64,000 bases of DNA, taken from Blastocystis sp. Blastoise (Eukaryota; Sar; Bigyra; Opalinata; Blastocystidae). Below, piece after piece: positions 6,841-64,000 of the stretch. A program made the position numbers and the translations under genes. The DNA is taken from positions 1 through 64,000 of the forward strand of contig JBBPEB010000018.1 in NCBI GenBank assembly GCA_039096225.1, given 5' to 3'. Every line of letters starts with the position of its first letter. Positions within the stretch are counted from its first letter, which is position 1. The notes beneath the pieces were generated by a model. That model saw only the letters and a list, made by a program, of their open reading frames with translations, was not told where the DNA came from and ran no database searches.

Positions 6841-6880
<40 letters not shown>

Positions 6881-7264
6881 GGAATGAAGGAAGTAGGAAG
6901 AATGTGGAAGTAGGAAGTAGGAAGAAAGAAGAAGGAAGGATGAAGGATGAAGGAAGAAGGAAGAAGTAGGAAGAAGGATGAAGGAAGAAGAAGGAAGAAG
7001 GAAGAAGTAGGATGAAGAAAGAAGGATGAGGAAGTAGGAAGAAGAAGGAAGAAGAAGGAAGAAGGAAGAATGACGGATGAGGAAGTAGGAAGTAGGAAGG
7101 AAGAATGAAGAATGAAGAATGAAGAATGAAGAATGAGGAAGAAGGTAGTAGGAAGGATAAGGAAGAAGTAAAATGAAGTAGAAAGAAGGAAGAAAGAAGA
7201 AAAAGGAACAAGAAGACTATTAAACCTATATACAATAGAAAAAATATAAAAAGATAACATAAAA

Positions 7265-13500: not shown

Positions 13501-15773
13501 ATGTAGTTGTGCACCATATATTTGGTTAAGCGATATTATTTATAATTAAAAAGATATTAATAAAAGAACAGAAAACATGATTTTTGAGTCGTTTCTGATT
13601 GGCTCTTTGGGATCATAAAGATAAAAATTGTTGACCAGACAATTGAAAAATAAACATGGGGTAAACTTGATTTTTTCTCAATCCCACAATATACGTTATC
13701 CGTGTTTATTCTTTATATTTATCTATTTTTTAATACTTTTTCATATTGAACACGTGAGGCCTTAACGGTCAAATTTAGATTCTTATTTTGACATGATATT
13801 CTGATTCAGGAGGTCAAAAAACCTAGGTGTGCCAATTTTGAGCTCCTGAGGACGATTTTTGAGTGATCGATATTTTCTTCGATCTTCTTATAATGGACTA
13901 ATATTGTATCATAGTAATCAATAGGTCCTCAAACTACTATAGTTAAAACAAAGTTTTAAAATAATGAGTTTGAGTGTCACAATTTTGAAAAATGTGAATT
14001 AAGTGGTCTTAGAGTGAGAGATTCAATATAATGACTTTTGTTTAGTAAACTAGAGATAATACTCTATTCTATGTTAAAAGGAGAGTCAAAATTATGAAGG
14101 TCAAAGTGTATCACCAAATGACAAAATGTGTCTTAAAAAGTAAAAGGGTTTCTATATGTGTTTAGAATCATATATTAAGTTTATTTTATGAATAAGAGCT
14201 TTAAATAAATAGTTTAAGGTTGTCAAATTCAAAAGAATGTGTAAAACATAGTCTTAAACTTTGAATAAAAAATTTATAGATATTAATTAGTGTACAGCTG
14301 TAGTAGCTCTACAACATATCAAAAGTTCAAAGAAAATAATTTTTAGAGAGTGGATGTGTGAAGGGTTGTGACTATTATTTAAAATTTATTTTTACTTCAG
14401 TTTATATAAAATCGTGAATTTCGTACACTGTAGAAAAATTGAGTCAAAAAATCAACTCTAAGGGTCTTAAATTTAAAAAAATGTAAAAATGAGTGACTTA
14501 GAGGACGAGATTCAATATTTGAGTGTTTATTCATTAAACTAGAGTGTATGACCTATATTATGTTAAAAGAAGGGACAAAAATATTTTGATCAGAGTGTAT
14601 GACCAAATGGTAAAGTGTCTTTAAAAAGTCTAAAGTGATGACTAATGTGCTTATAGGGTCATATAAAGTCTACTATGAAAATATTAGCTTTTAAAAATAT
14701 GTTTAAGCCTTTCAATTAGTAAAAATATGTTCAAAGAGACTCATAAAATGAGAGTTTTAAGAAACGAGATATTGTTCAGTATACACTAAGAGACACTCTA
14801 CAACATATCAAAAATATAGCAAAATCTATTTTTAGAGACTGCATGTGTAAAGGGTTGTGAGAGTTATTGAAAAAATATTTTTCACTCAGTTTGAGCAAAA
14901 TCGTGTTTTTGGAACACTGTAGAAAAATTAACTTCAAAAATCAACTCTAAGGGTCTTAATTTTTAAAAATGTGAAAATGTTTGACTTAGAGGACGAGATT
15001 CAAAATTCCATCTCACTTTCATATAACTAGAGCACACACTCTATATTATGTCAAAAGGAGGGACGAAAATATTTTGGTCGAAGTAAATGAGCAAATGCAA
15101 AAGGTTTATAAAATGTCTTAAAGTGATCACCAATGTGTAGCTAACACTATACTGAGTATAGTATGTAAATATTAGCTTATAAAAATGAATTTAAGTGTGT
15201 CAACTTTTCATAATGTGTCAAAAAAGGTCTTTAAGAAAGAGATTCAAAACATTTACTTTTATTTAATAAATTGTATGATAAACTCTATACTATATCAAAA
15301 GACTGACGGAAACTGTTTTGATACAGTGGATCTTGAATGGGTAAAGTCTCTTTAAAAGTTATATTTTTGAGTTATTTGTGTTTAAGATCATTATTAGAGA
15401 CGACTGTAGAAATATTAACTTTTTAAACCATGTTTTATTAGTCAAAGTTAGAATGAATGCTGACTTTGTTATGATTAAAGCTTTCTAATTCTTTTAAAAA
15501 GTATGAAAATGAGTTTAAATCATTATATTACGTTTATTTAAATAAATTTTATGAATTAAAAATACTTCAGAGTTCTTCACATTGTGACTCATTTCTAAAG
15601 TTATTGACTTTAAAAACTCACAAAATGTTTAAAACAGTTGTATAATTATTAATAAATACAAAATATATTTTAAAAATAATAAATAATATGTATAATGATT
15701 CAAAATAGTTTTTTTATTTTCTTTCAAGTATTGTTTTTAGTTTTTTTGATATCATTTAAAGAATTTATTTAAT

Positions 15774-15841
15774 TCTTATATCAGGAATTGAACCTGATTA
15801 CAATCAATAAATGATTGTAACTCTCCATATAGAGTATAAGA
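15774..15841 (-). ncRNA. tRNA-like cloverleaf, family 2, copy in Helitron D
   Basis: On the minus strand, the outer stem is TCTTATA/TATAAGA, the D-like arm CTCT-ATATGG-AGAG, the middle stem TTACAATC/GATTGTAA with loop ATTTATT, and the T-arm TCAGG-TTCAATT-CCTGA. Total 68 nt. The outer and middle stems differ in sequence from family 1 but remain fully paired. B-box GGTTCAATTCC is intact. It is antisense to Helitron D. Confidence 0.65.
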
Positions 15842-15856
15842 AGTGTTATTAAAGTA

Positions 15857-16340
15857 ATATATAATATATAATATATAATATATAATATATAATATATAAT
15901 ATATAATATATAATATATAATATATAATATATAATATATAATATATAATATATAATATATAATATATAATATATAATATATAATATATAATATATAATAT
16001 ATAATATATAATATATAATATATAATATATAATATATAATATATAATATATAATATATAATATATAATATATAATATATAATATATAATATATAATATAT
16101 AATATATAATATATAATATATAATATATAATATATAATATATAATATATAATATATAATATATAATATATAATATATAATATATAATATATAATATATAA
16201 TATATAATATATAATAGATAATAATATATAATATATAATATATAATAGATAATAAATAATAAATAATAATATATAATAGATAATATATAATAGATAATAA
16301 ATAATAAATAATAATATATAATAGATAATATATAATAATG
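15857..16340. repeat. ATATAAT-type microsatellite in Helitron D
   Basis: Long 7-bp-period run (ATATAAT)n ending in variant TAATAGATAATA units. The equivalent run in Helitron E (about 60456-60605) is much shorter, which explains most of the length difference between D (3087 bp) and E (2759 bp). The 193-aa open frame over it is an artefact. Confidence 0.95.
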
Positions 16341-16381
16341 AAAAAAAGAAAATAAAAGCCAAACTGTTATTATTTTATGCA

Positions 16382-16428
16382 GCCGCGGTCCGGTGCCGTT
16401 AGGCCCCGGACCTGCGGCGTGACCCTAG
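16382..16428 (+). other. Helitron D 3' terminus: GC-rich hairpin plus CTAG
   Basis: GCCGC pairs with GCGGC at the base, and GGTCCGG with CCGGACC above it, around a loop containing GTTAGG. The hairpin (16382-16418) is followed by GTGACCCTAG. It is strikingly GC-rich in a very AT-rich setting. Confidence 0.9.
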
Positions 16429-16658
16429 TTGGATAAAATAAAAATAATCCAATAATTTTGGTTAAAATTTTGTGCGAAAATGGTTTTTTGCGTTTTTTAG
16501 CCAGAAATTTAGAGTTTTCGAAAAATTTTTTTAACAGTCATTTTCAGAATTGTGTTCCGGATTTTATGATGTAATTTTTATTTTATAAAAGTTAATAACA
16601 AAGTCAATAATAGTGAAAGTGTGTGAGACACCGTACTTTTGCAGAACTAAATTAAGGA

Positions 16659-16930
16659 TATTAATAAATATATCATACTATATCTATGACTTATATTATA
16701 TTAATAAAGGTTATACTTTATATTAATTAATATATCATACTATACTTATGTATCATATTATATTGATGAAGGTTATACTTTATATTAATTAATATATCAT
16801 ACTATACTTATGTATGTATTATTATATTAATAAATGTTATACTTTATATTAATATATATATTATCATACTATATCTATGTATTATATTATATTAATAAAG
16901 GTTATACTTTATATTAATTAATAAATACTT
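16659..16930. repeat. Tandem repeat, period about 62 bp (right part)
   Basis: Continuation of the satellite at 10150-10553 on the other side of X1, with units containing ATATATCATACTATA and TTAATAAAGGTTATAC. Positions 16930-17031 are AT-rich intron sequence leading to the acceptor at 17030-17031. Confidence 0.8.
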
Positions 16931-17031
16931 CAACAACTATAACAATGAAAGTTAATTTATATACTACACAACTAAACTTTATTCTAAACTTAAACATAAT
17001 ATATTTAATATCTAATAATTAATATATATAG

Positions 17032-20000
17032 GTTCCAATAAGGATAAAATAAATAATAATGATTTATCTAAATCATTTGGTTTTAACTCAAAACCTTTAG
17101 CTTTGTTTTCGACTTTTAATTTTCAAAATAATATTCCTTTACAAAACATTCAAAACAATAATTCAAATAACAATATTGATATTGATATCGATAATCGTTA
17201 TTCACAAATAAATAATAATAATTCTATATTAAATAATGGTTCAAACCTATTCAATCAAATGAATCCAGTTAATCAATCAATTAATAACATATCTATTGTT
17301 CAAAGTCAAATTAATAATAATAATCAATCTATTCCTATATCAACTACTATTATACAACCTACAGAAAAAAATACTTCTGTTTCTAATAATAATAATGATT
17401 CTATTAATACTTCTTCACACTCTTTACCTGTTGTTACTACTATTCCAACTGATGTAAATATATCTAACAATAATAATTCTACAATCATTAATGATAATAC
17501 AAATAATTCAAGAAATAACACTAATACTAATAATAATGAAACAATAATACATAGAAATAATAGATCTATTAATTCCATTATGAATAGTTATTTAACTATT
17601 CCTGATTTAAGTCCTATTCTTCCTCCTTTAAGTATTCTAACAAATATTCCTCATATTAATTTAAATAATGATAATGAATCAGAAATTATAACAACAATAC
17701 CTAATAGTAGTAGTAGTAGTAGTTCAAGTGATAGTAGTAGTAGTAGTAGTAGTAGTTTTTCTGATAATGATTCTGATTCTGATTATATTGATCCTTTTCC
17801 TAATATTAATAGTAATACTCAAAATAATGACGAAATACCAGTTGTAAGAACTATTAGAAGACCTATAACAGATAATAGTATGTTTTTTATTATTTAAATA
17901 TATTTATTTAATACTTTTTTATAGTTGAAGAAGATATAATTATTCATCCTATTATTAATAGAGGAAGAAGAAGAGCTTTAGATATTTGTATGCTATTTAT
18001 TTTTTATAATTCTTTATGAATAATTAAATAACAAATTATTTTTATAGATAATCAACAAAGATTATTATATCCTGGATTACATAATTGTATTGCTTCTATT
18101 CAAAGAAGTATTTATATATATTTAATATTTATTTTATATTATTTTATATAGATTCTCATGGTGATTTCGTATTAAATGAAGCATTGAATACTTATAAAGC
18201 TAATTATTTAGGTGATTTTAATGTTCATTGTGAATATTGTCATGCTAAACATTTTGAATTAGAGAAAGGAATGAATGATAAGTTTTATACTTGCTGTGGT
18301 AGTGGTAAAGTAGTTCTTCCTGAGCTTCCTGATCTTCCTAATACTATTCGTTCTTTATTACAAAGAGATAATCCAGATTCAAGAGAATTTATTAATAATA
18401 TTATTCGATATAATAATTCTGTTGCTTTAGCTTCTTTAGCTGGAAATAATACTTCTGATGATGATTTAAGAAATTCTTCTGGACCTTTACTATTTAAATG
18501 TGGAGGTAATATATATCATACTTTTAAGAGTGCTTTAGATTTTGATGTGAATGATCCTACAAGACATCCTGTATTCAATCAATATTATATGATAGATGGA
18601 GATGAAGCTACTCATATGAGAAGTATGAATCGATATTTTTGTGATTTAAAACCAAATATTTTAGAGATATTAGATAGTACAATAAGAGAATATCATCCAT
18701 TAGCTCAAATATATAATTCACTTCGAGAAAGAGTAGATGAAGTATTAGAAGAGAATAGTCAAATGAATAGAAATAATATTAATTTATTAATAGAGTTTAA
18801 GAAACAAAGAAGAGAAGTACCTGATATAAGAAGATATAATACTCCTCAAGTAGATGAAGTAGCAGTAATATATCAATATAGAGAAGGAGGAGTAATGCCA
18901 GAAAGAAGTTATTGTTGTTTTCCTAGAAGTGGTATGGAAATAGTAGCTACTAATAGTAATAATGAACAGAATCGTTATACTTCAGGTCAATATATAGTAA
19001 TGAAGAATACTAATTCTTATATAGATTGTATGGTTTATCCAGTTATGTTTCCAACTGGAAGACAAGGTTGGTATCCAGATTTATTATCATTGAATCGTTC
19101 TAATCAAATTACTATTACTATGTTAGAATATTATAATTATATGCTTCAAATGAAAGATCCACCTTATGATAATTATTTATTAAAATATAAGAAATTAACT
19201 TTACAATATATTACTGATAATTATATTCGAGTAGAACAAAATAGAATTAATTATATACGAAATAATCAAAATAAGTTAAGAGCTTCAACTTATCAGAATA
19301 TAAATAATATGTTAGAAGAGAGAGGAGATCAAATAAATGAGAATGATAGAAATATAGATAGAATAGGTAAAGCTATTATATTACCTTCTTCTTTTGTTGG
19401 TAGTCCAAGAAATTTGCAACAGAAATATATGGATGCTATGAGTGTAGTTCGAGAATATGGTAAACCTGATTTATTTATAACATTTACTTGCAATCCAGAT
19501 TGGTTAGAAATAAAGAATAATATTCCAGAAGGTTATACTGTTAATGAATTTCCAGATTTAGTTTCAAGAGTGTTTCATTTAAAGTTGAAACAATTACTTT
19601 CTGATATAAAGGATAAGAATATATTTGGTACTGTAGAAGCTTTATTATATTCAGTGGAATTCCAAAAGAGAGGTTTACCACATTCTCATATATTAATTAT
19701 TTTAGATACGAATTCTAAATATAGAACAGAAGATGAAGTAGATAGTATAATAAGTGCAGAGATTCCTGATAAAGAATCAACTCCTCTTCTTTATGAATTA
19801 GTTAAGAAACATATGATTCATGGTCCATGTGGTCCTGATTATGATACGAATTGTGTTTGTATTGATAGATCAACAGGTAAATGTAGTAAGAGATTTCCAA
19901 AAGAATATATAGAGCAAACTAATTGTCATTTAAATTCTTATCCTTTATATCAAAGAAGAAATATTCCTGATAGAACTATTACTCTTATTCGTAGTCATAA

Positions 20001-22764
20001 TACTTATACTATTGATAATCGTTGGGTAGTTCCTTATAATCCTTATTTATTATTGAAATATCAAGCTCATATTAATGTAGAAGTCTGTTGTAATATTCAA
20101 AGTACAAAATATATATATAAGTATGCATTAAAAGGAAATGATTCTGTGATAGCTCAATTAAGAAGAGTGAATGATAATGGAATAGTAGATGAAACTCAAG
20201 CTTATTTAGATTGTCGATATGTTTCTCCTCCTGAAGCTTCTTATCGTTTGAATTGTTTTGAAATTACTTATAATTCTGTTTCTATTAATAGATTACCTAT
20301 TCATTTACCTGATGATCCATATATATTATTTCGAGAAGGACATGAAGTAGAAGCATTAAGGAATAGTTTAGAGAAAGGTACTAAATTAACAAAATACTTT
20401 GATTTAGAGAAAGAAGTTCAGAATCAAAGAAAGATATATACTTATTATTATATAGAGAAGAAGCATGGTATTCGTAATATGAATAATGTAGAAGAAGAAA
20501 GAGAATTGATTCAAGTTCGTTTAGAAGAGATAAATAGAATAAATAGTTATGAAGTAGATGATGATAATATATCCGAAGAATTATTGAAAATATTAGATGA
20601 GAAATATCCTATTTATGCTTATCATGAAATACCAAAATATTATGTATGGAAATCGAATACAAATACTTGGAATAGACGTCAGAGAGATATAAAAGCTTTA
20701 GGAAGAATGTATTATGTGAATCCAAAAGATAAGGAACGATATGCTTTGAGATTATTATTATTGAATACGAAAGGAGCTGATAGCTTTGATTCTTTGAAGA
20801 TAGTAAAAGGATTGAATAGTAATGAACCTTATAGAACCTTTAGTGAAGCAGCTATAGCAAGAGGATTATTGAATAATGAGAGAGAAGTATTTGATTCATT
20901 TTCAGAAGCTATTGTTTTTGCTACTCCATGTCAATTGAGACAATTATTTATTACTTATATTTCAGAATCATTATTAACAAATGTGAAAGAGTTTTGGATT
21001 CGATTTAAATCATTTCTTAGTGAGGATTATAAACATTCAATGCATAATAATGAAATAGATTATATAAATACTCCTTTAGCTCAAGATTTAGATTCATCAA
21101 GTGTTATAGAAGATGATACTAATAGTGTTCTTCAAGATTATGAAATACGTACTTTACAAGATATAAAAGAGATGATGATAAGTATAGGAGTGAATTATAA
21201 TGATTTAGGATTACCTCAAGTAGAAGAACAACATCATTATAATGATTATAATTATAATCCTACATTAGAATTACAAGAAGCTAATAGAGTAATAGAATTA
21301 TTAAATGAAGAACAAAGAAATGCATTTGATAGAGTAATTCATTCAATAGAAAGTAGTAGAATAGAAGATAAGTTATGTTTCTTTATAGATGGTCCAGGTG
21401 GAAGTGGAAAGACTTTCTTATATAATAGTTTATTAAGTTATTTACGTGGACATAATAAGAATGTATTACCTGTAGCTTCAACAGGAATTGCTTCTACTTT
21501 ATTACCAGGTGGTAGAACAGCTCATAAACAATTTGGTATTCCTTTGAATGTTGATCCTGATTCTACTTCAAATATAGATTTAGCTAGAGATAGAAGAAAA
21601 GTAGAAGAAATAAGAATAGCTGATTTAATAATATGGGATGAAGCTCCTATGATGAAAGGTGATTGTTTTATGGTAGTACATAGATTATTATGTGATATAA
21701 TGAATACAGAATTAGATATTCCTTTTGGTGGTAAAACAGTAGTATTAGGAGGAGATTTCAGACAATGTTTACCAGTTATAAGAAAAGGAACTCAAGCTCA
21801 GATTGTTAGTTCTTCTATAAAGTTTTGTTCCTTATGGAATTCTATCAAAAATAATGTCATTCATTTATCAAGAAATATGAGAGCTTTAGAAGGAGCAGAT
21901 GATTTTAGACAATGGTTATTACAAGTAGGAGATGGTGTTCTTTCTAATAATTATACTATTAGTCATCATTTAGATATAGATTATATTCCTATTCCTCCTC
22001 AATGTATTGTGAATGATGATTTATGTGTTACTGTATTTGGACATCGAATCAATACTTCTCTTGATTCTGATATCAAACGATTAGCTTCTTCTGTTATATT
22101 AGCTTCTACTAATGATTGTGTTGGTACTTTAAATGATTTCATTGTTGATAATCTTCTTTCTGGAACTACTACTCCTTATATCTCTTCTGATTCTATTCTT
22201 GATTCTGAAACAGATGATCCAGAATCAAATTATCCTATCGAGTTTATCAATTCTCAAACACCTTCTGGAATGCCTCCTCATATATTAAATTTAAAAATAG
22301 GTTGTATCATTATGCTTTTAAGAAATCTTAATCCTTCTAAAGGATTATGTAATGGTACTAGACTTATAGTAACTCGATTAGGATCAAATAATATTACTGC
22401 TACTATTTTAAATCCTCCTCCTTCTCTTACTATTGATGAACAAACTGTTATTATTCCAAGAATCATCTGTAATTCAAATCCTGAAGATCTTCCTATTATT
22501 ATATCCAGAAGACAATTTCCTATTCGTTTAGCCTTTGCCATGACTATCAACAAATCTCAAGGACAAACATTTGAAAGAGTTGGTGTTTACTTAGATCGTC
22601 CTGTCTTCTCTCATGGTCAACTCTATGTTGCTTTCAGTCGTGCTCGATCTTTCAACGCTCTTTTTATTAAGGTAGTTGATAGTGTCTCTCAAGGTAAGAT
22701 GATTAGTAGTAGTAATGAAATATTTACTAAGAACGTGGTCTTCAGGTCTACTCTAAATAATTAA
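17032..22764 (+). CDS. H1 Helitron Rep/helicase transposase (3' exons)
   Basis: Exons 17032-17877, 17925-17987, 18048-18107 and 18152-22764 (TAA). The first is an Asn/Ser-rich linker of 846 nt; the next two are 63 and 60 nt; all are symmetric and phase 1. The last holds the enzyme. A Cys zinc motif CEYCHAKHFE with TCCGSGK comes first. The Helitron Rep domain follows, with LFITFTCNPDW, the HUH-type motif GLPHSHILII (about 19673) and the tyrosine motif YIYKYALKG (about 20110). The Pif1-like helicase has Walker A GPGGSGKT (about 21391), Walker B IIWDEAP, LGGDFRQCLPV, and NKSQGQTFERVGVYLDRP with QLYVAFSRARS near the end. Known Helitron proteins nick and copy a strand at CTRR ends by rolling circle and unwind DNA. 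All key motifs are intact. The open frame extends upstream to 18085, but its first 22 residues would be intron. Confidence 0.9.
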
Positions 22765-42564: not shown

Positions 42565-48906
<6,342 letters not shown>

Positions 48907-48913
48907 CGTAGAT

Positions 48914-49050
<137 letters not shown>

Positions 49051-49301: not shown

Positions 49302-52300
49302 TTATAATACTCCATTAAATACACAATTTTTCGTAAACCATTCATTACTATTTCTGATTAATTGACCTTGATTAATATTATCATTCTTTATAAACATTTT
49401 TATACCATGAAAAGAACGTACTCTACTTAAAGCAACATATAATTGACCATGACTAAATACAGGTCTTTCTAAATAAATACCTACATTTTGAAATGTTTGA
49501 CCTTGTGATTTATTAATAGTCATAGCAAAAGCTAATCTGACAGGAAATTGTTTTCTACTTAACTTACATGGTAAATCACTATCATCTACTATAAATTTAA
49601 TTCTTGGAATCAATACTATATCTTGTCCTTCTAACATATTATCAGTTCTTACTAATAATTGACTTCTTATTACATTTGGTTTTGTATCTAATACTACTAA
49701 TCTCGTTCCATTACATAATCCTCTCTTTATATCTAAATTTCTTAATAACATAATAACTGAACCTCTTTTCAATTCTAAATCATGAGGTGGACATCCTTGA
49801 GGAATTAAACTATTTAAATATTCTGTACTATAAGCATCTCTTTCATCTATATCTTCTACTTCTTCTGCTAATTCATCATGACTATAATAATGATGAGAAC
49901 TTGATCTTATCATATTTTGAATTCTTTCATTAATTAAAAATGCTTGTTCATTTGTTGCACATAATATACAATTTGAAGCTAATTTCTGTCTATATATATC
50001 TGTATTTGAATCATTAATAAATTCATGAAATATCTCTTCACCTATATTCTCATCACAAATGCATTCTCTTGGAATATGTACTTTATCTTTTGATAATAAT
50101 CTTAATTCATTATTACATCTCTCACCATTTCCTATCTTCAATAAGAATTCTTTAAATTCTATTTCATTTGCATTTGCTCTCATATTTTCTGTTAATTGAA
50201 ATTGATTAAATTCATTCCAAATATCTAAATATTTAATACATAAAGGAACTATATCAGCTTCTTTTCCATGAGCTACTACTGGTAAACATTGTCTAAAATC
50301 TCCACCTAATACTATTGTTTTACCTGCAAATGGAATATCTATCTCATCATTATATAAGAATCTTAATAATCGATCAACTACTTTTAAAGCATATTTAGAA
50401 GCCATAGGAGCTTCATCCCATATTATTATTTTACATTTCTTAATTTGTTCTGCTCTTGGAGATCCTCTTGAAATAGAAGAAGAAGAAGATTCATTTAATT
50501 CAAAAGGTAATCCAAATTGTGAATGAGATGTTTTTCCTCCACATAATAAAGTAGCTGCAATACCTGTCCATGCAACTGCTATCACATCATCTATATTATT
50601 TCTTATTGATTTAATTATTGTATTATAAAGAAATGTTTTTCCAGTTCCTCCTGGTCCATCTATAAAAAACATATTATTTCTATGAGGTTCATTATTATTC
50701 ACTGATTCCATTATTGATTCATATACTCTTCTTTGTCCTTCATTTAATAAACTTATATTTCTTTCTGCTATTCTATGATCTTCTTCAAAATTAATTCCTT
50801 CAGATTCATAATCTATCATATTAGTATTATTATCAAATTGTGGTAAATTAGTACTTTGATATCCTCCATTATGTTTATTTGTATCTATGACACTTCTTAT
50901 ATGATTTAATGCTCTAGGTATACAATATTCTTCTATTATTCTATTCACTTCATTATCTTCTGAATCTAATACATATGCATCTTGTCTATCTATACTTATA
51001 TATTCATTTATATATTGATGAAAGAAATCATCTATCATATCATTCCTATAAGTATTCCAAATAGATAATGGATCAGTAATAGGATAATAAGAACAAAGTA
51101 AACCAAATAATTGTCTTAATTGCCAAGGAGTAGCATCTATTACTTCATTTGCAAGAATATCATAATATTCTGTATCATCTACTAATAATCCTCTTGCTAT
51201 ACAGGATTCTCTATATGTATTATATATTTGGCCTTCATAACATTTTAAATCATCAAAACTTAATGGACGACTTACATGTAATAAAAGTATTCTTAAACAA
51301 AATAAATTATCATTTGTAGGATCTATATAAGGAAGTCTTCCTATTACTTTATTATTTCTTCTTCTATGATTCCATTTCTTTAATTTTGAATCATATGTAT
51401 AATATTTAGGAAATTCTATATAAGTTAAAATAGAGGGTTCATCCATTGTTCCTCTTGATTCTTCATTTATATATAAATCATTCATTTTAAAATATGCTGT
51501 TAACATTGTATCTTGATTCATTATTCTATCTAAAGCTCTTTCTTCATCTCCTTCTACATAATATACAGTTCTATCATTCTCATCATGAATATCTAAAGTA
51601 ATTACACTCACATTACAATACTTTATTGGAAATCCATATATTCTCCACATTGCTTCAGGAGCTGATAAATATCTTCCTTTTAAATAAGATTTCATTTCAT
51701 TTGGTATTTCTATTTCATTTCTATTTGAATTATTTGGATTATTATTATTAGTATTATTATTAGTATTATCTTCTCTTTCTATTTCTGCATTAATAGAATC
51801 ATGTCCTTTAAAAGCATATTTAAATATATATTTAGGACTTCTTACAGAAGAACATACTTCTACATTAATATGGCAACCTATTCTTAATGATAAATATGGA
51901 TTATATGGAACTACCCATCTATTATCTAAAGTATTATTTACATTTGATTGCCTACCTATTACATATACTCTACCATTATCTCTTCTTCTATAATTTGGAT
52001 ATCCATCTTCATTTATTGTAGTTTCATTTCTATATTCTTTTGGAAATTTCTTTGAACAATATTGTTGACCATTTATTTCTTTCATACATTGAGATGTTCT
52101 TGTATGAGGACCATGCATATTCATTGAAGTAATAATTTCATATAATCTTGGATTCTTTATAGGATCAGGAATTTCTGCACATATATAGGAATCTATATCT
52201 TCAGGAGTTCTTAATTTATATTCATTCTCTAAAGTAATTAAAATATGTGCATGAGGCATTCCTCTCTTTTGATATTCTATTGAATAACATAAACATTTTA

Positions 52301-55300
52301 CTTCTCCAAATACTTTAAAGTTTGTTATCAAATGAGTTAAGATTTTCAATTTTATATAAAATACTCTATCTACTATATCAGGTCTCATCCAAGGTTGTTG
52401 ACCTTCTTCTAATGATTCTAAGATTTCTGGCCAATTTGGATTGCAAGTCATGGTTATAAATAAATCTGGTTTACCATAAGCTCTTACAATAGCCATTGTT
52501 TCTAAGTAAGAATTCTTCATATATCGAGGACCACCTACAAAACTTGATGGAATAATAACTGCTTTTCCCATTCTACTTCTTATATATTCATCACTAAATC
52601 CATTTCGTATCATCTCATTCACTGTATCTCTAAATACAGAATATTTCTCAGATCTTAATTTTGTTTGATTATTTGCTATAAATAATAATCTTGAATATTC
52701 TATTTTTGTAGCTGCATCAACCATAAATTGTAATAATAATTTTTCAAATAATAATAAATAATTCTTATGATTAGGATGTCTTGTATATAATAAATAGGAA
52801 TAGAATTCTCTTAATGAAATAGTAGGTATAGTATAAAATTCATTTCCTAAAATATCTAATGGAAATCCTCTTTCTGATCTATTTCTAAAAATTGGAATAA
52901 TTCTCATCGATTTTGAATCATCTCCATTACTATCATTATTCTCTGTATGATTACTATTTATTCTATAATTATTTCTATTATTTAATTCATTTTCTACTTC
53001 TTCTATTATTTCATTCTCATTATTATTATTATTAGTTGAATTTGAAATATTTCTATTATTATTATTATTATTTTGACGATTTAAATGTAATTCAGAATTA
53101 CGTATAATATTAGAAGTAGATTCTAAACTCCATAATGGTAATCCATAAGGAAACATTAATGGATATATTAAAGGATCACAAAAAGGATTATTATAACTAA
53201 GATTTGTTATTTGTTGTTCTGATATATTTTCATTATTATTTTCATTTTCATTTTCAATTTCATTATTACTATTATTTCTTCTTCTTCTTCTTGGATAACA
53301 TGAAAGATTAATATTTGGTAAACCTTCATCATTTTGTTTTGGTATAATCATAGCTATTTCATTTGTTGTAGTAGGAGCATTAAATCTTCTTCTATCATCA
53401 TAATTACTTATTTTAAATTGTAATTTTAAATTTACTTGTGAATAAGTAGTATTATTTATTCTTCTTGATTCTGTTACTTGTTCATGTAATGTTTTAAAAG
53501 ATTCATATATTTTATTATTATTTCTTATCATAGAATCAATACTTAATAATAAATCAGAAGATAATTCTGAAAACATACTATTTCCATTTCGAATATGAAG
53601 AGCTTCTTCTTCATCATAAATATATATTTGATTAAAAGAAGGAGGAGAATTATCAGAAGGATATAAATCACTCATAGAATGATATACATTACCATGAACT
53701 CTATAAAAATATGGTCCTGGACCATTCATTCTTGTTACTACATTAGAACATGACATAGAAGCAAAAGCAAAAGCATTATTATATCTTCTTATCTCATTTC
53801 TAAATAATTTATTATTTGGTGTTTGACTCTTTAATTGATTTAATAATTCATTTGGAAGATTTATAGGTGATTCTACTTTCACTTTCCCATTATTACAACA
53901 CATTGTATAATTTGAATTTCTTGTAATGATATAATCATGATCTCCTTCATAGTATTCAAATTGTATTCTTGAATCATTAATTAAATTAATGTATTTTTTA
54001 TATGTAGAATTTTTTGTGATATAAAAGTTTGTTTTTTCTGCTTCAAAATGAAGAGCTTCACAATGAATACAAACGTGATTCATTTTACCTATATTATAAT
54101 ATTCATATTTATTATTTCCTTGAATATCTCTTTCATTCTCTTCTATTATTTGTTCTCCATTTCCTATACATAATATAATAATAGTTTTATTATCATAAAG
54201 AAAGAATTATAAAAATGATATAATATTAAGCATACTTAATTTAATACATGCTTCACAATTTTCAAATCTTATCACAATAGGAATATTGCTATTATTTTCT
54301 TCATTATTATTTTCATTTTGATTATCTATATCTATATCGTTATTATTTGTAGAGTTTATTGGTTCTATTTGCAAAATAGGATTATTAGTAGTATTAGAAG
54401 GAATAATAGGTGTGAAATCACTATCTGTACTTGAATCATTATCTGAAGTAGAAGAATCAAAACTAATTCTTCTTCTATGATTATTTATATTTGTTGATAA
54501 TAAATTATTATTATTAGGATTTTGAATGGGAGATATTTGATAATAATTTAATATATCTAATATTGATGATCTTGGTAAAGGAGGAATAATAGAATGATTA
54601 TTATTACTATTATGAGAAGAAGAAGAAGAATTAATAATTCTTGAATCAAGAGGAGATAATCTAGGAGGTGTTATAATGAGAGAAGTAGAAGGAGATACTA
54701 TTTGATTATTTGTATTAGAATTTGGTGTATTATATATAGTTGGAGTATTAATATTATTGATCATATTATTATCTGAAAGTATATCATTATTGTGTTGATT
54801 ATGTAAAGGAGTTACAGGATTATTTAATATTATAGGTTGTGTATTATCATTTGTTTCATTATTTTCAAAAATAAAAGTAGAATTAAAACTATCATCAATT
54901 ATTGATTGAGATATACTTTCATTATTATTATTTATTTCAGATTCTATAAAATTTGTTTCATTAATTAAAGTTTCAGATATATTTTCGTTATTTAAACTTG
55001 TATTATTATTAGAATCTGGCTCTATTAAATTGATTTCATTAATTAATGTTTCGATTGTGTTATTATTATATGAATTTGTATTATTACTTTGAGTTGAAGT
55101 ATTATCTGAAATAGGAGAAGAAGAAGAAGAAGATATAGTTGCTATATTGTTTAGTTGTATTGGGTGTTGTTCAGTTACTATTTCTTCATTATTTAAAGAA
55201 TTATTTGTATTGAATAATGAATTGTCTTGATTAAAAGCATTTTGATTTTCGTTTAATATTTGGTCATTAATCCTTTTAGATTTGTGGGTATTCAAAAAAT

Positions 55301-55351
55301 TCCCAAATATATCTCTTCTCTTAAGAGAATTAAATCGCTTTCTTTTGTTTC
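49302..55351 (-). CDS. H2 Helitron Rep/helicase transposase
   Basis: Two large exons, 55351-54236 (1116 nt, symmetric, phase 1) and 54163-49302 (TAA), flank a 72-bp intron. The first begins NKRKRFNSLKRRD, a basic stretch, followed by a long Asn/Ser/Thr-rich linker. The second opens with an acidic piece, then the zinc motif CIHCEALHFE with CCNNGK. The Rep domain has LFITMTCNPNWPE, GMPHAHILITLE (about 52250) and YIFKYAFKG (about 51820). The helicase has GPGGTGKT (about 50650), IIIWDEAP, LGGDFRQCLPV, LTENMRAN, and NKSQGQTFQNVGIYLERP with LYVALSRVRS. All expected Helitron motifs are intact. An upstream start could be ATG 55295, but the phase-1 acceptor at 55352 argues that more exons precede it. 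Same role as H1: rolling-circle nicking, joining and unwinding. Confidence 0.9.
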
Positions 55352-55582: not shown

Positions 55583-56082
55583 TTAATAATATTCAGGAGA
55601 AGAAACAGGATAAACAGGAGAAGTAGGAGGTGAAACCCTTTCATCATAATAAGGAGGACTTGAGAGATCCTCGTCACTTTCATTCTCCTGATTATTATTT
55701 AAAGTAACTATCAAGTCATAATAGAATTTAAATAATAAAAATATTTACCTTGATTTGTTGGACATGTTGAAAATCTGTTTTTATTTGCAAAAAGAGTTGT
55801 GTTGTCTTTAAATATAAATTTATTTGTTATTTCTGAGTCTGTAGTTCCTATATATATTTTAGGTTGTTTTCACATCAAAACATACCTTCACAATTAATAG
55901 TAAACAGATTACTATTAAAAAGTATTTTTTCAAGGGTGTTTTTGTAGTTATTATTATCTAAAGACGAAACAATAAAAATATTTTTATTATTTTATTAGAC
56001 AATAATATACCTTTGTCTCCCTTGTTGTTAAGACAAAAGCAAGATGTATGAAACTCAAAAGTATTTTCAACTCTTTTACAAT
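55583..56082 (-). CDS. Four linked exons ending in a stop, upstream of H2 enzyme
   Basis: Exons 56082-56011 (72 nt), 55957-55886 (72), 55847-55749 (99) and 55707-55583 (terminal, TAA) read in one frame with phase-1 junctions: CKRVENTFEFHTSCFC, then YKNTLEKILFNSNLF, ITNKFIFKDNTTLF, and a Pro/Tyr-rich tail SSPPYYDERVSPPTSPVYPV. No domain is recognised. It could be an alternative 3' end of the transcript that otherwise splices into the H2 enzyme at 55351, or a separate small gene. The interval 55352-55582 has no coding sequence. Confidence 0.5.
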
Positions 56083-56569: not shown

Positions 56570-56908
56570 TTTTTATATTTATATTAAAAAGGCCAGATAC
56601 ACTACTTGTTTTGCTTTTTTTTGGCTTTACTCCATTATTATTTAAATCTAAAAAAATAATATATATAGTTATAATATAAAATACCTTTCAATTTAATTTC
56701 ATTATTATGTTTTTTAGAGCCACTCTTTGAGAGAGTGCGGCGATTTTCTATAAATATAAATATAAATATAAATATAAATATATACTCTTCATTAGGGAAT
56801 GTTTTGATCGTTTGCATTCAGCTATATATATAGTATAGTATATATATATATATTAGTATATAATATATATGCATATACCATTATTTGAAGTATGATTCAA
56901 TTCATTAT
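56570..56908 (-). CDS. Four basic linker exons, all symmetric phase 1
   Basis: Exons 56908-56879 (30 nt), 56821-56786 (36), 56747-56685 (63) and 56647-56570 (78) join as NELNHTSNN, then ECKRSKHSLMK, NRRTLSKSGSKKHNNEIKLK and LNNNGVKPKKSKTSSVSGLF. The chain is Lys/Arg/Ser-rich, plausible as a nuclear or nucleic-acid-binding linker. They continue the micro-exon array in the same frame and lead toward the H2 enzyme. Introns are GTATAT or GTATTT to TATAG. Boundaries rest on sequence reading alone. Confidence 0.5.
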
Positions 56909-56949: not shown

Positions 56950-57240
56950 CTTCGGTCAATGGTTTTGATCCTGAATCTATATATATATTATAATATGATA
57001 TAACATAATATAATATTATATATACATTGAATCAATGGTTTTAATCCTGAATCTATATATATAATAAGTATAATATAATATAATATAATATAATATAATA
57101 TATACCTTGAGTCAACGACTTTGATCCTGAATCTATATATATAATATAATGTAATATAATACATATATATAATATTATATATATATATACCTTGAGTCAA
57201 TAGCTTTGATCGTGAATCTATATATATAATAAGTATAATA

Positions 57241-57296
<56 letters not shown>

Positions 57297-57462
57297 GAGT
57301 CAATAGTTTTGATCGTGAATCTATATTTATAATAAGTATAATATTATATTATATATATATATATACCTTGAGTCAATAGTTTTGATCCTGAATCTATATA
57401 TATAATAAGTATAATATAATATAATCTAATATATACCTTGAATCGACGGTTTTAATCTTGAA

Positions 57463-57497
<35 letters not shown>

Positions 57498-57706
57498 ACC
57501 TTCACTCGATTGTTTTAATCCTGAATCTAGATATATAATATAATATAATATAATATAATATTATATATATATACCTTGAGTCAATAGCTTTGATCCTGAA
57601 TCTATATATATAATATAATATAATATAATATAATATAATATTATATATATATATACCTTGAGTCAATAGCTTTGATCGTGAATCTATATATATAATAAGT
57701 ATAATA

Positions 57707-57760
<54 letters not shown>

Positions 57761-57853
57761 GAGTCAATAGCTTTGATCCTGAATCTATATATATAATAAG
57801 TATAATATAATATAATCTAATATATACCTTGAATCGACGGTTTTAATCTTGAA

Positions 57854-57890
<37 letters not shown>

Positions 57891-60800
57891 ACCTTCACTC
57901 GATTGTTTTAATCCTGAATCTAGATATATTATATAATATCATTACTATATATATGAGAATAGGCAAAAAAATTCCCATTGGTCAGTTTTTGGAAAATTCA
58001 TTTGATTGGCTACTATATACTCAAGTTTGTACCCACAACTCCTCTAAACTTACGGGGAGTTAACTTTTCGTTGAAACACAGTTCAATAGGATATAACATG
58101 TAGTTGTGCACCATATATTTGGTTAAGCGATATTATTTATATTTAAAAAGTTATTAATAAAAGAACAGAAAACATGATTTTTGAGTCGTTTTTGATTGGC
58201 TCTTTGGGATCATCCCGATAAAAATTGTTGACCAGACAATTGAAAAATAAACATGGGGTAAACTTGATTTTTTCTCAATCCCACAATATACGTTATCCGT
58301 GTTTATTCTTTATATTTATCTATTTTTTAATACTTTTTCATATTGAACACGTGAGGCCTTAACGGTCAAATTTAGATTCTTATTTTGACATGATATTCTG
58401 ATTCAGGAGGTCAAAAAACCTAGGTGTGCCAATTTTGAGCTCCTGAGGACGATTTTTGAGTGATCGATATTTTCTTCGATCTTCTTATAATGGACTAATA
58501 TTGTATCATAGTAATCAATAGGTCCTCAAACTACTATAGTTAAAACAAAGTTTTAAAATAATGAGTTTGAGTGTCACAATTTTGAAAAATGTGAATTAAG
58601 TGGTCTTAGAGTGAGAGATTCAATATAATGACTTTTATTTAGTAAACTAAAGATAATACTCTATTCTATGTCAAAAGAAGAGTCAAAATTATGAAGGTCA
58701 AAGTGTATATGACCAAATGACAAAATGTGTCTTAAAAAGTAAAAGGGTTTATATATGTGTTTCGAATCATATATTAAGTATATTCTATGAATAAGAGCTT
58801 TAAATAAATAGTTTAAGGTTGTCAAATTTCAAAGAATGTGTAAAACATAGTCTTAGACTTTGAATAAAAAATTTAGAGATATTAATTAGTGTACAGCTGT
58901 AGTAGCTCTACAACATATCAAAAGTACAAAGAAAATAATTTTTAGAGAGTGGATGTGTGAAGGGTTGTGACTATTATTTAAAATTTATTTTTACTTCAGT
59001 TTATATAAAATCGTGAATTTCGTGCACTGTAGAAAAATTGAGTCAAAAAGTCAACTCTAAGGGTCTTAAATTTAAAAAAATGTAAAAATGAGTGACTTAG
59101 AGGACGAGATTCAAAATAAGAGCTTTTATTCATTAAACTAGAGTGTATGATCTATATTATGTTAAAAGGAGGGACAAAAATATTTTGGTCGAAGTGTATG
59201 ACCAAATGGTAAAGTCTTCTTAATAAGTCTAAAGTGTTGACTAATGTGATTATAGAGTCATATAAAGTCTACTATGTGAATATTAGCTTTTAAAAATGTG
59301 TTTAAGTCTTTCAATTAGTAAAAATATGTTTAAAGAGAGTCATAAAATGAGAGTTTTAAGAAACGAGATATTGTTCAGTATACACTAAGAGACACTCTAC
59401 AACATATCAAAAATATAGCAAAATCTATTTTTAGAGACTGCATGTGTAAAGGGTTGTGAGAGTTATTGAAAAAATATTTTTACTTCAGTTTGTGCAAAAT
59501 CGTGTTTTTGGAACACTGTAGAAAAATTAACTTCAAAAATCAACTCTAAGGGTCTTAATTTTTAAAAATGTGAAAATGTTTGACTTAGAGGACGAGATTC
59601 AAAATTCCATCTCACTTTCATATAACTAGACCACACAGTCTATATTATATCAAAAGGAGGGACGAAAATATTTTGGTCAAAGTAAATGAGCAAATGCAAA
59701 AGGTTTACGAAATGTCTTAAAGTGATGACCAATGTGTAGCTATGGTATTATTAAGTATAGTGTGTAAATATTAGCTTATAAAAATGAATTTAAGTGTGTC
59801 AACTTTTCATAATGTGTCAAAAAGGGTCTTTAAGAAAGAGATTCAAAACATTTACTTTTATTTAATAAATAGTATGATAAACTCTATACTATATCAAAAG
59901 ACTGACGGAAACTGTTTTGATACAGTGGATCTTGAATGGGTAAAGTCTATTTAAAAGTCACTTTTTCGAGTCATTTATGATTAAAATAAGTATTTGAGAC
60001 AACTGAAGAAATATTAACTTTTTAAACCATGTTTTATTAGTCAAAGTTAGAATGAATGCTGACTTTGTTATGATTAAAGCTTTCTAATTCTTTTAAAAAG
60101 TATGAAAATGAGTTTAAATCATTATATTACGTTTATTTAAATAACTTTTATGAATTAAAAATACTTCAGAGTTCTTCACATTGTGACTCATTTCTAAAGT
60201 TATTGACTTTAAAAACTCACAAAATGTTTAAAACAGTTGTTTAATTATTAATAAATACAAAATATATTTTAAAAATAATAAATAATATGTATAATGATTC
60301 AAAATAGTTTTTTAATTTTCTTTCAAGTATTGTTTTTAGTTTTTTTGATATCATTTAAAGAATTTATTTAATTCTTATATCAGGAATTGAACCTGATTAC
60401 AATCAATAAATGATTGTAACTCTCCATATAGAGTATAAGAAGTGTTATTAAAGTAATATATAATATATAATATATAATATATAATATATAATATATAATA
60501 TATAATATATAATATATAATATATAATATATTATATATTATATAATATATAATATATAATATATAATAGATAATAAATAATAATATATAATAGATAATAT
60601 ATAATAATGAAAAAAAGAAAATAAAAGCCAAACTGTTATTATTTTATGCAGCCGCGGTCCGGTGCCGTTAGGCCCCGGACCTGCGGCGTGACCCTAGTAA
60701 TATAATATAATATTATATATATATACCTTGAGTCAATAGCTTTGATCCTGAATCTATATATATAATATAATATAATATAATATAATATAATATTATATAT

Positions 60801-60899
60801 ATATATACCTTGAGTCAATAGCTTTGATCCTGAATCTATATATATAATAAGTATAATATAATATAATCTAATATATACCTTGAATCGACGGTTTTAATC

Positions 60900-60963
<64 letters not shown>

Positions 60964-61259
60964 ACCTTCACTCGATTGTTTTAATCCTGAATCTAGATAT
61001 ATAATATAATATAATATAATATAATATTATATATATATACCTTGAGTCAATAGCTTTGATCCTGAATCTATATATATAATATAATATAATATAATATAAT
61101 ATAATATTATATATATATATACCTTGAGTCAATAGCTTTGATCGTGAATCTATATATATAATAAGTATAATATAATATTATATATATATATATATATATA
61201 TACCTTGAGTCAATAGTTTTTATCCTGAATCTATATATATAATATAATATAATATAATA

Positions 61260-61297
<38 letters not shown>

Positions 61298-61353
61298 GAG
61301 TCAATAGTTTTGATCCTGAATCTATATATATAATATAATATAATATAATATAA

Positions 61354-61390
<37 letters not shown>

Positions 61391-61530
61391 GAGTCAATAG
61401 TTTTGATCTTGAATCTATATATATATATATATATAATATAATAGATTATAATAGAATATAATAGATTATAATAGAATATAATATAATATTATATATATAT
61501 ATACCTTGAGTCAATAGCTTTGATCGTGAA

Positions 61531-61580
<50 letters not shown>

Positions 61581-61662
61581 ATAATAGAATATAATAGAAT
61601 ATAATAGAATATAATAGAATATAGCATATATATACCTTGAGTTAATAGCTTTGATCCTGAAT
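56950..61662 (-). CDS. Array of 24 tandem 27-bp micro-exons (split by Helitron E)
   Basis: Twenty-four near-identical 27-bp units, each flanked on the minus strand by TATATAG on the 5' side (one exception) and GTATA on the 3' side. Left edges on the plus strand include 56950, 57026, 57106, 57191, 57294, 57367, 57437, 57500, 57575, 57657, 57758, 57828, 57893, then 60727, 60809, 60879, 60966, 61041, 61123, 61204, 61295, 61388, 61505 and 61636. Read in phase 1 each encodes nine residues: DSGSKLLTQ, DSRSKLLTQ, DSRLKPSIQ, DSGLKQSSE and similar. Introns of 36-104 bp are almost pure AT repeats. No known domain matches. One unit (60879-60905) lacks the AG acceptor. The 5' start lies beyond Helitron F. 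If not spliced, the array would be an exon-like minisatellite. Confidence 0.5.
60373..60440 (-). ncRNA. tRNA-like cloverleaf, family 2, copy in Helitron E
   Basis: Identical to the copy in Helitron D at 15774-15841: four paired stems, B-box intact, antisense to the Helitron. An AT microsatellite and then the 3' hairpin follow. Confidence 0.65.
60651..60697 (+). other. Helitron E 3' terminus: hairpin plus CTAG
   Basis: Same hairpin (60651-60687) and tail GTGACCCTAG as Helitron D, with the 10-nt spacing shared by H1. Confidence 0.92.
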
Positions 61663-61709: not shown

Positions 61710-63737
61710 TCATTACTATATATATGAGAATAGGCAAAAAAATTCCCATTGGTCAGTTTTTGGAAAATGCATTTGATTGGTTAAGGTATACTATAGTTTG
61801 TACCCACAACTCCTCTAAACTTACGGGGAGTTAACTTTTGGTTGAAACACAGTTCAATAGGATATAACATGTAGTTGTGCACCGTATATTTGGTTAAGCG
61901 ATATTGTTTATAATTAAAAAGATATTAATAAAAGAACAGAAAACATGATTTTTGAGTCGTTTTTGATTGGCTCTTTGGGGTGACCCCGATAAAAATTGTT
62001 GACCAGACAATTGGAAAATAAACATGGGGTAAACTTGATTTTTTATCAATCCCACAATATACGTTATCCGTGTTTATTCTTTATATTTATCTATTTTTTA
62101 ATACTTTTTCATATTGAACACGTGAGGCCTTAACGGTCAAATTTAGATTCTTAATTTGACATCATATTCTGATTCAGGAGGTCAAAAAACCTAGGTGTAC
62201 CAATTTTCAGCTCCTGAGGACGATTTTTGAGTGATCGATATTTTCTTTGATCTTCTTATAATCGACTAATATTACAGTATTGTAATTGATAGGTCCTCAA
62301 ACTACTATAGTTAAAACAAAGTCTTAAAATAATGAGTTTGAGTGTCACAATTCTGAAAAATGTGAATTAAGTGGTCTTAGAGGATAAGATTCAATATAAT
62401 GACTTTTATTTAGTAAACTAGAGATAATACTCTATACTATATTAAAAGAAGAGTCAAAACTATGAAAGTCAAAGTGTATGACCAAATGACAAAATGTGTC
62501 TTAAAAAGTAAAAGGGTGTCTATATGTGTTTCAAATGTTAAGTCAAGTCAATTCTATGAATAAGAGCTTTAAATAAATAGTTTAAGGTTGTCAAATTCAA
62601 AAGAATGTGTAAAACATAGTCTTAAACTATGAATAAAAAATTTAGAGATATTAATCAGTGTACAGCTGTAGTAGCTCTACAACATATCAAAAGTACAAAG
62701 AAAATAATTTTTAGAGAGTGGATGTGTGAAGGGTTGTGACTATTATTTAAAATTTATTTTTACTTCAGTTTGAGCAAAATCGTGAATTTCGTGCACTGTA
62801 GAAAAATTGAGTCAAAAAATCAACTCTAAGGGTCTTAATTTTGAAAAATGTAAAAATGAGTGACTTAGAGGACGAGATTCAATATTTGAGTGTTTAGTCA
62901 TTAAACTAGACTGTATGATCTATATTATATTAAAAGAAGGGACAAAACTATTTTGATCAAAGTGTATGACCAAATGGTAAAGTGTCTTTAAAAGTGTTAT
63001 GGTGATGCCAGTTGTGTTTAAGGGTCTAAATCAAGTTTACTCTTAAAATATCAACTTTAAATAACCAGTTAAAGGTTGTCAATTTGTCAAAATGTTTTAA
63101 AGCGTGTCTTAAACAAAGAGATTCAAGAAGTTGACTTTCATTTTATACATAACATGTATATATAAACACTTTACTAAAAGAACTTTGGAAAATATTGTGG
63201 ATGAGTGTTTTGTCAAATGGCAAAGTTGTATCAAGAGTTGATTGTTTCCATTCATTTTTGTTTAAATCAATGTTTTATGTCTACTCTATAAAAATAACCT
63301 TTTAATACTGAGTTTAACGTTTAAAAGTCAACATGTGTGTTTGGTTTGTTTACTTTTGAGAGTTGAAAATCAGTTTAAAATGATAAATTATGACATACAC
63401 GTCTATATTGATTGATTCAAACAGTTTTGAGATGACTTAGTTGCTCGAGTTAAAATGGATTTTGTTCTCATTCTGACTGTTGTTGAGAAGAGGAAGTCTA
63501 AAAAAAACTATAAAAAGTTAGATATATGTATGCAATGTCAAAATTGAAAAGTATAAAGTAAAATGGATTAAAATGAATTTAAAAAAGAGAATATATATAT
63601 ATATATATAATATGTAAAAAATATTAAAGAAAAAGAAAAATAAGACTTCATGTCAGGAATTGAACCTGAAAACAATCTATAATGATTGTTTCTCTCCTTC
63701 TAGAGCATAAAGGGAGTTTATAAATAATAATAATAAT

Positions 63738-63772
<35 letters not shown>

Positions 63773-64000
63773 GGAATGAAGGAAGTAGGAAGAAAGAAGT
63801 AGGAAGTAGGAAGAAAGAAGTAGGAAGTAGGAAGAAAGAAGAAAGAATGAAGAATGAGGAAGAATGAAGTAGGAAGGATGAGGAAGGATGAGGAAGAAGG
63901 AAGAATGAGGAAGGATGTAAAAGTAGGAATGATGAGGAAGAAGGAAGAATGAGGAAGAAGAAGGAAAAAACAAGGATGAAGGATGAGGAAGAAGGAAGAA
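61710..64000 (+). mobile_element. Non-autonomous Helitron F (3' part beyond window)
   Basis: It starts TC at 61710 after host A, in the same TATAAT/TATAGA repeat DNA that borders the micro-exon array. The order follows copies A, B and C: conserved 5' kilobase, modules, family-1 cloverleaf at 63646-63712, AT run, purine tract. It runs off the right edge. Non-coding. Confidence 0.75.
63646..63712 (-). ncRNA. tRNA-like cloverleaf, family 1, copy in Helitron F
   Basis: 67-nt structure as in A, B and C. Here the middle stem reads AAACAATC/GATTGTTT: a G-U pair of the other copies is replaced by A-U, so pairing improves. B-box GGTTCAATTCC is intact. Confidence 0.65.

Follow-up and report, generated by a model that had tools for sequence, protein, structure and literature searches.

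In Schistosoma mansoni, Davis et al. reportedly found transcripts in which exons of 81 bases are repeated in tandem. Putative tandem exons encoding a repeat were also seen in the locus described here, a run of 27-nt exon-like units within a Helitron transposon of Blastocystis sp. Blastoise, but the schistosome units are longer and belong to a host gene. The source DNA was C7:1-64000 of a 33.3-Mb assembly in 34 contigs; this whole 64,000-nt stretch is called the window below. The nearest precedent is SmPoMuc of S. mansoni, in which, by the published account, a 27-bp exon 2 forms a tandem array, together with its intron and a microsatellite, of up to ~20 genomic copies (PMC2576457), and in which repeat number in the N-terminal domain varies, with recombination between paralogues (PMC2576457, PMC3757033). 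The same accounts give SmPoMuc, a host mucin gene, a genomic unit of ~1 kb with an intronic part more than 94% conserved, whereas most Blastoise units measure ~63-210 bp including the spacer, the spacers vary freely, and the array is located within a Helitron. In schistosome micro-exon genes (MEG), many very small symmetric exons are stated to make up most of the coding part (PMC4015677, PMC4350168); the serial symmetric micro-exons read from the Blastoise sequence alone resemble these, but the MEG exons are not presented as tandem near-identical copies, and their products appear to be secreted. The likeness to schistosome micro-exon genes drawn in a first-pass annotation of this DNA was apt, with SmPoMuc being closer than the MEG genes.

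Helitron Rep/helicase transposons share Helitron_like_N and PIF1 domains, a TC start, and an end formed by a hairpin and CTAG. The Blastoise element differs from other Helitrons in its long 5' chain of putative micro-exons, which differs between families. Internal tandem repeat blocks occur in Mothra and similar Helitrons, whose size varies with the blocks, but the source does not describe these blocks as exons (PMC4683698). Among the papers listed for Helitron combined with microexon or with Blastocystis, and for microexon combined with transposase, titles and abstracts contained no description of a tandem micro-exon array in a transposon or Helitron, nor of one leading to a Helitron enzyme, in line with the earlier view that such an arrangement is undescribed.

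On the minus strand of the window, 24 units were found between 56950 and 61662, each exactly 27 nt long. The first-pass annotation had counted them correctly, but calling them near-identical was generous, as 0-7 substitutions separate a unit from the commonest type. The AG/GT bounds and open phase 1 ascribed to all of them hold with single exceptions: GT follows 24 of 24 units, AG precedes 23 of 24 (the other has AT where AG is expected), and one of the 24 carries an in-frame stop (Table 1). The commonest core, G/AT TCA GGA TCA AAG CTA TTG ACT CAA G, reads DSGSKLLTQ in phase 1. This 28-nt core, including its G, occurs at least 40 times genome-wide and its reversed-pattern control not at all, so its recurrence is above chance. 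Introns had been put at only 36-104 bp, which fits 22 of the 23 inter-unit spacers; the remaining one measures 2,807 bp because a non-autonomous Helitron is nested in it. Scans of the window for tRNA and Rfam features found none.

The last unit with its flanks was found with zero mismatches at nine genomic places, and the nine arrays rule out a single odd locus. These copies, labeled C3, C4a, C4b, C7 (the window copy), C13, C24, C28a, C28b, and C34, make up family A, with D and E as sister families. Units were sought in the nine arrays as ungapped 27-mers with at most five changes from six known types, a method that favors ungapped units; 151 were obtained, of which 148 have AG, 147 have GT, and 146 have both. 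Stops occur in only 1 of the 151 in phase 1, compared with 151 in phase 0 and 14 in phase 2. A gapped search of the 76-899-bp spacers yielded two more units, both decayed: a 26-nt unit and a 27-nt unit with a stop. That exon length is fixed and intron length free was borne out, with the 151 units aligning ungapped at 27 nt and spacers of 36-185 bp and more.

Array size varies from 20 units in C3, 24 in C34, and 25 in C7 to 6 each in C28a and C28b. Despite differing unit number, C34, C3, and C7 are 99.9-100% identical across 3 kb downstream of the array; the corresponding 3 kb of C13 could not be aligned to other copies because other sequence lies there. Such identity indicates that the copies are recent, which argues against the arrays being decaying, unused relics. 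Decay can be seen in the stop and lost splice sites of C7 and C34, in the lost donors of C4a and C24, and in the long spacers that interrupt four of the nine arrays (C7, 2.8 and ~6.5 kb; C4b, 15.7 kb; C13, 2.7 kb; C28b, 0.8 kb), but the C3 array is intact, with both splice sites and no stop in 20 of 20 units, plus one decayed 26-nt unit, and relics are considered improbable. Both long C7 spacers are nested Helitrons; the TA-rich introns may be insertion hot spots.

Each of the nine arrays lies upstream of a same-strand Helitron_like_N match (51 such matches in the genome), at 4.0-4.2 kb in eight and at 24.6 kb in C13; at the level of sequence, the chain points at a Helitron enzyme, as had been proposed. 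At 49305-54206, PF14214 (E 7.5e-58) and PF05970 (E 4.2e-61) match one protein. The NCBI model WA158_000549 (P0001) contains PHAHIL, YIFKYAFKG, and GPGGTGKT, which we take to be the HUH motif, the paired tyrosines, and Walker A. TC is present at the 5' end in seven of seven copies compared, and the GCATCGGC-GAA-GCCGATGC hairpin followed by CTAG in all three copies with 3' flank compared (C7, C24, and C4a). Canonical Helitrons insert between A and T and do not duplicate the target; here T follows CTAG in three of three, and the base before TC is A in four of seven and T in three of seven, two of these three being a single duplicated insertion: C4a and C4b have an identical 5' flank and therefore count as a single insertion that was duplicated. 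The element that contains the array is a canonical Helitron, with 5' TC, 3' hairpin and CTAG, and Rep and PIF1 domains. The C34 copy is ~12.8 kb long, with its final bases just past the end of the stretch analyzed; the window copy runs from 49022 past the right window edge to ~C7:71.03 kb. The Helitron nested at 57939-60697 in its array, 96% identical over 2,655 bp to another non-autonomous Helitron at 13342-16428, is part of the history of this copy and not of the gene. On contig C4, the Helitron copies at 1523942-1525662 and 1556640-1573959 have the same 5' flank, and a segment of this contig is seemingly duplicated ~33 kb away.

That the Helitron carries a captured host gene here, not one of its own, is given very little credence. 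Gene capture by Helitrons is known, according to the source (PMC2267711), but 14 of 15 loci with the C-terminal exons have a same-strand Rep match ~3 kb downstream (the exception being C15:561922), families A, D, and E all have homologous exons, and a chain of small phase-1 exons likewise opens a second Helitron family.

Upstream of the array, seven loci have an ATG exon, MESDCPVLSLLSQYEDAESSNNN, whose 3' end is in phase 1, and the LSLLSQY of this exon is retained in families A, D, and E via synonymous changes only (by direct inspection). The flanking exons of 30, 36, 63, and 78 nt proposed earlier are all present with AG/GT ends and in the same phase; together with three exons further downstream (c1, c2, and c3) they are all in phase 1, and a stop is reached only in the next, c4 (Table 1). 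The 78-nt exon may be an alternative last exon, and c4 probably is one. Constraint was counted between families A and E in six aligned pieces, namely the start exon, c1-c4, and the first 55 codons of the Rep exon. Across these, nonsynonymous divergence (dN) is 0.22 and synonymous divergence (dS) 0.97, giving a dN/dS of 0.22, and changes at codon positions 1/2/3 number 36/38/73 of 191; taken together, the pieces show coding constraint in phase 1. The last residues and stop of c4 are also kept between A and E.

Table 1. Predicted exons, array blocks, and Helitron features of the window copy (window coordinates unless prefixed C7)
Feature	Position	Strand	Remarks
ATG exon of C7 copy	C7:68341-68412		beyond window
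First micro-exon of C7 array	C7:68144-68170		beyond window
Second nested Helitron	61710..64000	+	continues to C7:68112
5' array block, 11 micro-exons of 27 nt	60727..61662	-	includes unit with stop (61204-61230) and unit without AG (60879-60905)
Nested non-autonomous Helitron (TC...CTAG, 3' hairpin)	57939..60697	+	inside one array intron
3' array block, 13 micro-exons of 27 nt	56950..57919	-	last unit 56950-56976
30-nt exon, DNELNHTSNN	56879..56908	-	
36-nt exon, AECKRSKHSLMK	56786..56821	-	similar 36-nt exon in family E (by eye)
63-nt exon, basic	56685..56747	-	
78-nt exon	56570..56647	-	followed in C34 at +415 by TGTTTGTT, polyadenylation-type motif
Exon c1, CKRVENTFEFHTSCFCLNNKGDK	56011..56082	-	phase 1
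Exon c2	55886..55957	-	phase 1
Exon c3	55749..55847	-	phase 1
Exon c4, proline-rich, ends in stop	55583..55707	-	stop common to families (..EYY-stop / ..DYY-stop)
Rep/helicase exon 1, Asn-rich, starts GNKRKRFNSLKRR	54236..55351	-	phase-1 acceptor; 3' boundary by eye
Rep/helicase exon 2, Helitron_like_N and PIF1 domains	49302..54163	-	
Helitron 3' end, CTAG and hairpin GCATCGGC-GAA-GCCGATGC	49022..49050	-	

The array is probably the 5' coding part of an autonomous-type Helitron gene, in which an ATG exon would be followed by phase-1 micro-exons, larger exons, and then alternative ends or Rep/helicase. Splicing itself, the join to the Rep/helicase exons, the alternative ends, and any function are inferred, and it is more probable that a Helitron gene uses the units as exons than that it splices them on to the enzyme. 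Among NCBI models, P0001 has the ATG exon first, then 19 of the 20 units of C3 in their proper order, and continues into Rep/helicase; P0002 joins part of the family E micro-exons to Rep/helicase; and P0029, from a distant family present in the window, begins with a chain of small phase-1 exons at ~8256-9500 and runs into Rep/helicase.

The sister families have dissimilar arrays in the equivalent place. Family D (C10 and C28) has 25 units of 30 nt; in each of two copies, AG/GT bounds 25 of 25 and phase 1 is free of stops. In family E, represented by copies on C15 and C23, the ~12 micro-exons are diverged and most measure 30 nt (by eye), an example being DSSLIPNSMN. The start exon, the 36-nt exon, c1-c4, and the Rep exon all have homologues in this family; their DNA is much changed, but phase, boundaries, and amino acids are kept relative to A. 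The ratio of nonsynonymous to synonymous changes per site (pN/pS) is lowest in phase 1: in phases 1, 0, and 2 it is 0.48, 1.17, and 0.87 for five E micro-exons and 0.21, 1.08, and 0.44 for four D micro-exons, both sets being small and chosen by similarity.

A non-coding minisatellite in the Helitron, with AG and GT arising by chance where the 27-bp core meets TA-rich spacers, is held to be highly improbable. Helitron-internal tandem repeat blocks are known from Mothra, as reported (PMC4683698), the other Helitron of the window has a 62-bp minisatellite without visible exon-like units, and the 27-nt units lack phase-1 constraint. Set against these points are the ungapped alignment of the 151 units, with one shortened unit, among spacers of widely different length (in a search that favors ungapped units), the 30-nt units of the sister family with the same phase and sites, the ATG exon before and constrained coding exons after the array with phase 1 throughout, and the inclusion of the units in NCBI models.

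Several observations weigh against a coding array joined to the enzyme in one gene. Among the 27-nt unit types, pN/pS is 0.88 in phase 1, 0.68 in phase 0, and 0.31 in phase 2, with no synonymous preference in phase 1, and the family D units are open in phase 0 as well, though not in phase 2. In the window copy, one unit carries a stop, another has lost its acceptor, and two elements are nested, and in C28a and C28b a TGA lies within the Rep-domain match. The c4 stop before Rep/helicase is found in families A, D, and E, and c4 alone has no synonymous excess (5.2 of 27.2 synonymous versus 22.8 of 95.8 nonsynonymous sites changed). As for the models, which look like ab initio guesses, neither c2 nor the 78-nt exon is included in P0001, P0002 has an unrelated opening sequence with a weak DDE_3 match, P0003 (on the C28 contig) starts inside Rep exon 1, and P0001 and P0002 bridge the c4 stop with different donor sites, so that the junction across this stop is doubtful. 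The start of P0003 and the lack of synonymous excess in c4 alone weaken the single-gene explanation. A TGTTTGTT motif, present in the interval from the 78-nt exon to c1 in C34 and, as a single occurrence, in both D and E, though not in C24, would fit separate transcripts.

Each Helitron might instead hold two or three genes, that is, a micro-exon gene ending at the 78-nt exon, c1-c4, and Rep/helicase with its own start; this division is rated unlikely, although it carries appreciable weight. Besides the shared c4 stop and the start of P0003, it draws on TGTTTGTT, given as a Blastocystis polyadenylation motif in the source (PMC4159000), which occurs in C34 at +415 and +740 versus 0.4 occurrences expected by shuffling; the second is also present in D and E, and none was found in the C24 stretch or in the scanned L032 stretch. 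On the other side, no ATG exon with a phase-1 donor was seen before c1 or before Rep/helicase exon 1, conserved coding in the Rep exon begins exactly at the phase-1 acceptor, and three of the NCBI models (P0001, P0002, and P0029) are fused. In A and D, a TATA-like block is followed by a short ATG frame, which ends in a different phase and is absent in E (by eye). All three families have this block, AACCTATATAA, in the interval from the 78-nt exon to c1 (~+560 to +740 in C34); TGTTTGTT comes after it in C34 and in families D and E, and C24 lacks the motif there. Block and motif might mark a promoter or a transcript end.

If the array is the 5' part of one Helitron gene, one promoter and one start exon, MESDCPVLSLLSQYEDAESSNNN, would feed the chain, and ~17-25 symmetric 27-nt phase-1 exons (6 in two shortened copies) would be spliced serially. 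The genomes of Blastocystis ST1, ST4, and ST7 are described as intron-rich with very short introns, with a mode of 30 bp (PMC5608401); short host introns are probably recognized as units, and exons of 27 nt would then be no obstacle. Transcripts could end early, at the 78-nt exon with TGTTTGTT at +415 or at the c4 stop, to give short proteins, or could take an alternative route from c3 to Rep/helicase, where phase 1 fits (CAA G/GA AAC). Whole exon-plus-intron units may be gained or lost by slippage, unequal exchange, or rolling-circle copying in the TA-rich microsatellite introns, and because the exons are multiples of three with equal phases, the frame would survive such changes. The product would probably be a disordered transposase tail, free to vary in length and sequence.

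The best reading of the array is a hypervariable N-terminal tail that would arise from tandem symmetric micro-exons expanding with their TA-rich introns. Enzymes behind dissimilar arrays are mostly 97-100% identical where compared, and the distant family, which has 72-nt exons in the same place, is 41% identical. Between P0001 and P0002, residue identity is 38% just past the array and 58-73% in the next three bins, rising to 94-96% over residues 501-1100 and 98.5-100% to ~1700. The DNA of families D and A, compared as far as approximately the start of the Rep domain, is 95-100% identical from +500, with one 250-bp bin at 81%; at its 5' end, family D matches family E at 78% across 493 bp, and the 5' end of family A gave no match. 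A near-constant enzyme with a family-specific 5' part would be expected from recombination between elements. We suggest tentatively, and with less than even confidence, that the tail is swappable, with dissimilar arrays (of 27 nt, 30 nt, and diverged ~30 nt) exchanged by 5'-module recombination and growing and shrinking in frame. Alternative 3' ends would then yield the tail either on its own or joined to the enzyme, and the arrangement would parallel the schistosome mucin array within a transposon. A role in escape from host silencing or in tuning transposition would be a guess.

Were this correct, a transposon would be evolving part of a protein through splicing-compatible repeat expansion, with slippage confined to introns and the reading frame thus not at risk. 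Natural copies that differ in unit number or type and have near-equal enzymes are suited to the study of how ~20 consecutive 27-nt exons are spliced, and they also bear on the function of a transposase tail. Because arrays of this kind may code for protein, they call for caution in repeat masking and gene prediction.

The tail is of low complexity. A protein search with residues 1-340 of P0001 among candidates of ~1150-3650 amino acids returned three matches, two from Blastoise and one from Citrus; it contained no schistosome protein, and no direct comparison with SmPoMuc or MEG proteins was made. The Citrus match (38% over 55% of the query) was taken as low complexity. A hand-spliced tail of 394 amino acids matched nothing at E <= 0.001 in a search blind above ~690 amino acids, which therefore missed the fused models and is not counted as absence. 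A phage tblastn search with a host open reading frame gave no match.

The second Helitron family occupies 8256-22764 on the plus strand of the window, with a Rep/helicase open reading frame at 18085-22761. Its N-terminus likewise consists of small phase-1 exons in series, among them tandem 72-nt exons that end in GLE/GLQ, and NCBI models of it are grouped as P0029 with 17 members. An automatic exon finder applied to Helitron stretches L032, L033, and L034 gave a clear small-exon chain in L032 only. The 62-bp minisatellite lies at 10145-16923, before the Rep/helicase exon of this family, and is cut by the non-autonomous Helitron at 13342-16428.

Near their 3' ends, nested non-autonomous Helitrons contain a stretch resembling a tRNA 3' half on the minus strand (60383-60435, 63652-63703, and 15781-15835), with a T-arm-like CAGGTTCAATTCCTG (by eye); ARAGORN called no tRNA at these stretches. 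Perfect microsatellites are found at 43223-43454 (ATA x 77) and 48915-49021 (TAT x 36), and the latter run stops where the family A Helitron begins. Purine/pyrimidine arrays of the GAAGAAGG type recur at 56-342, 2053-2389, 6879-7216, and 63770-64000.

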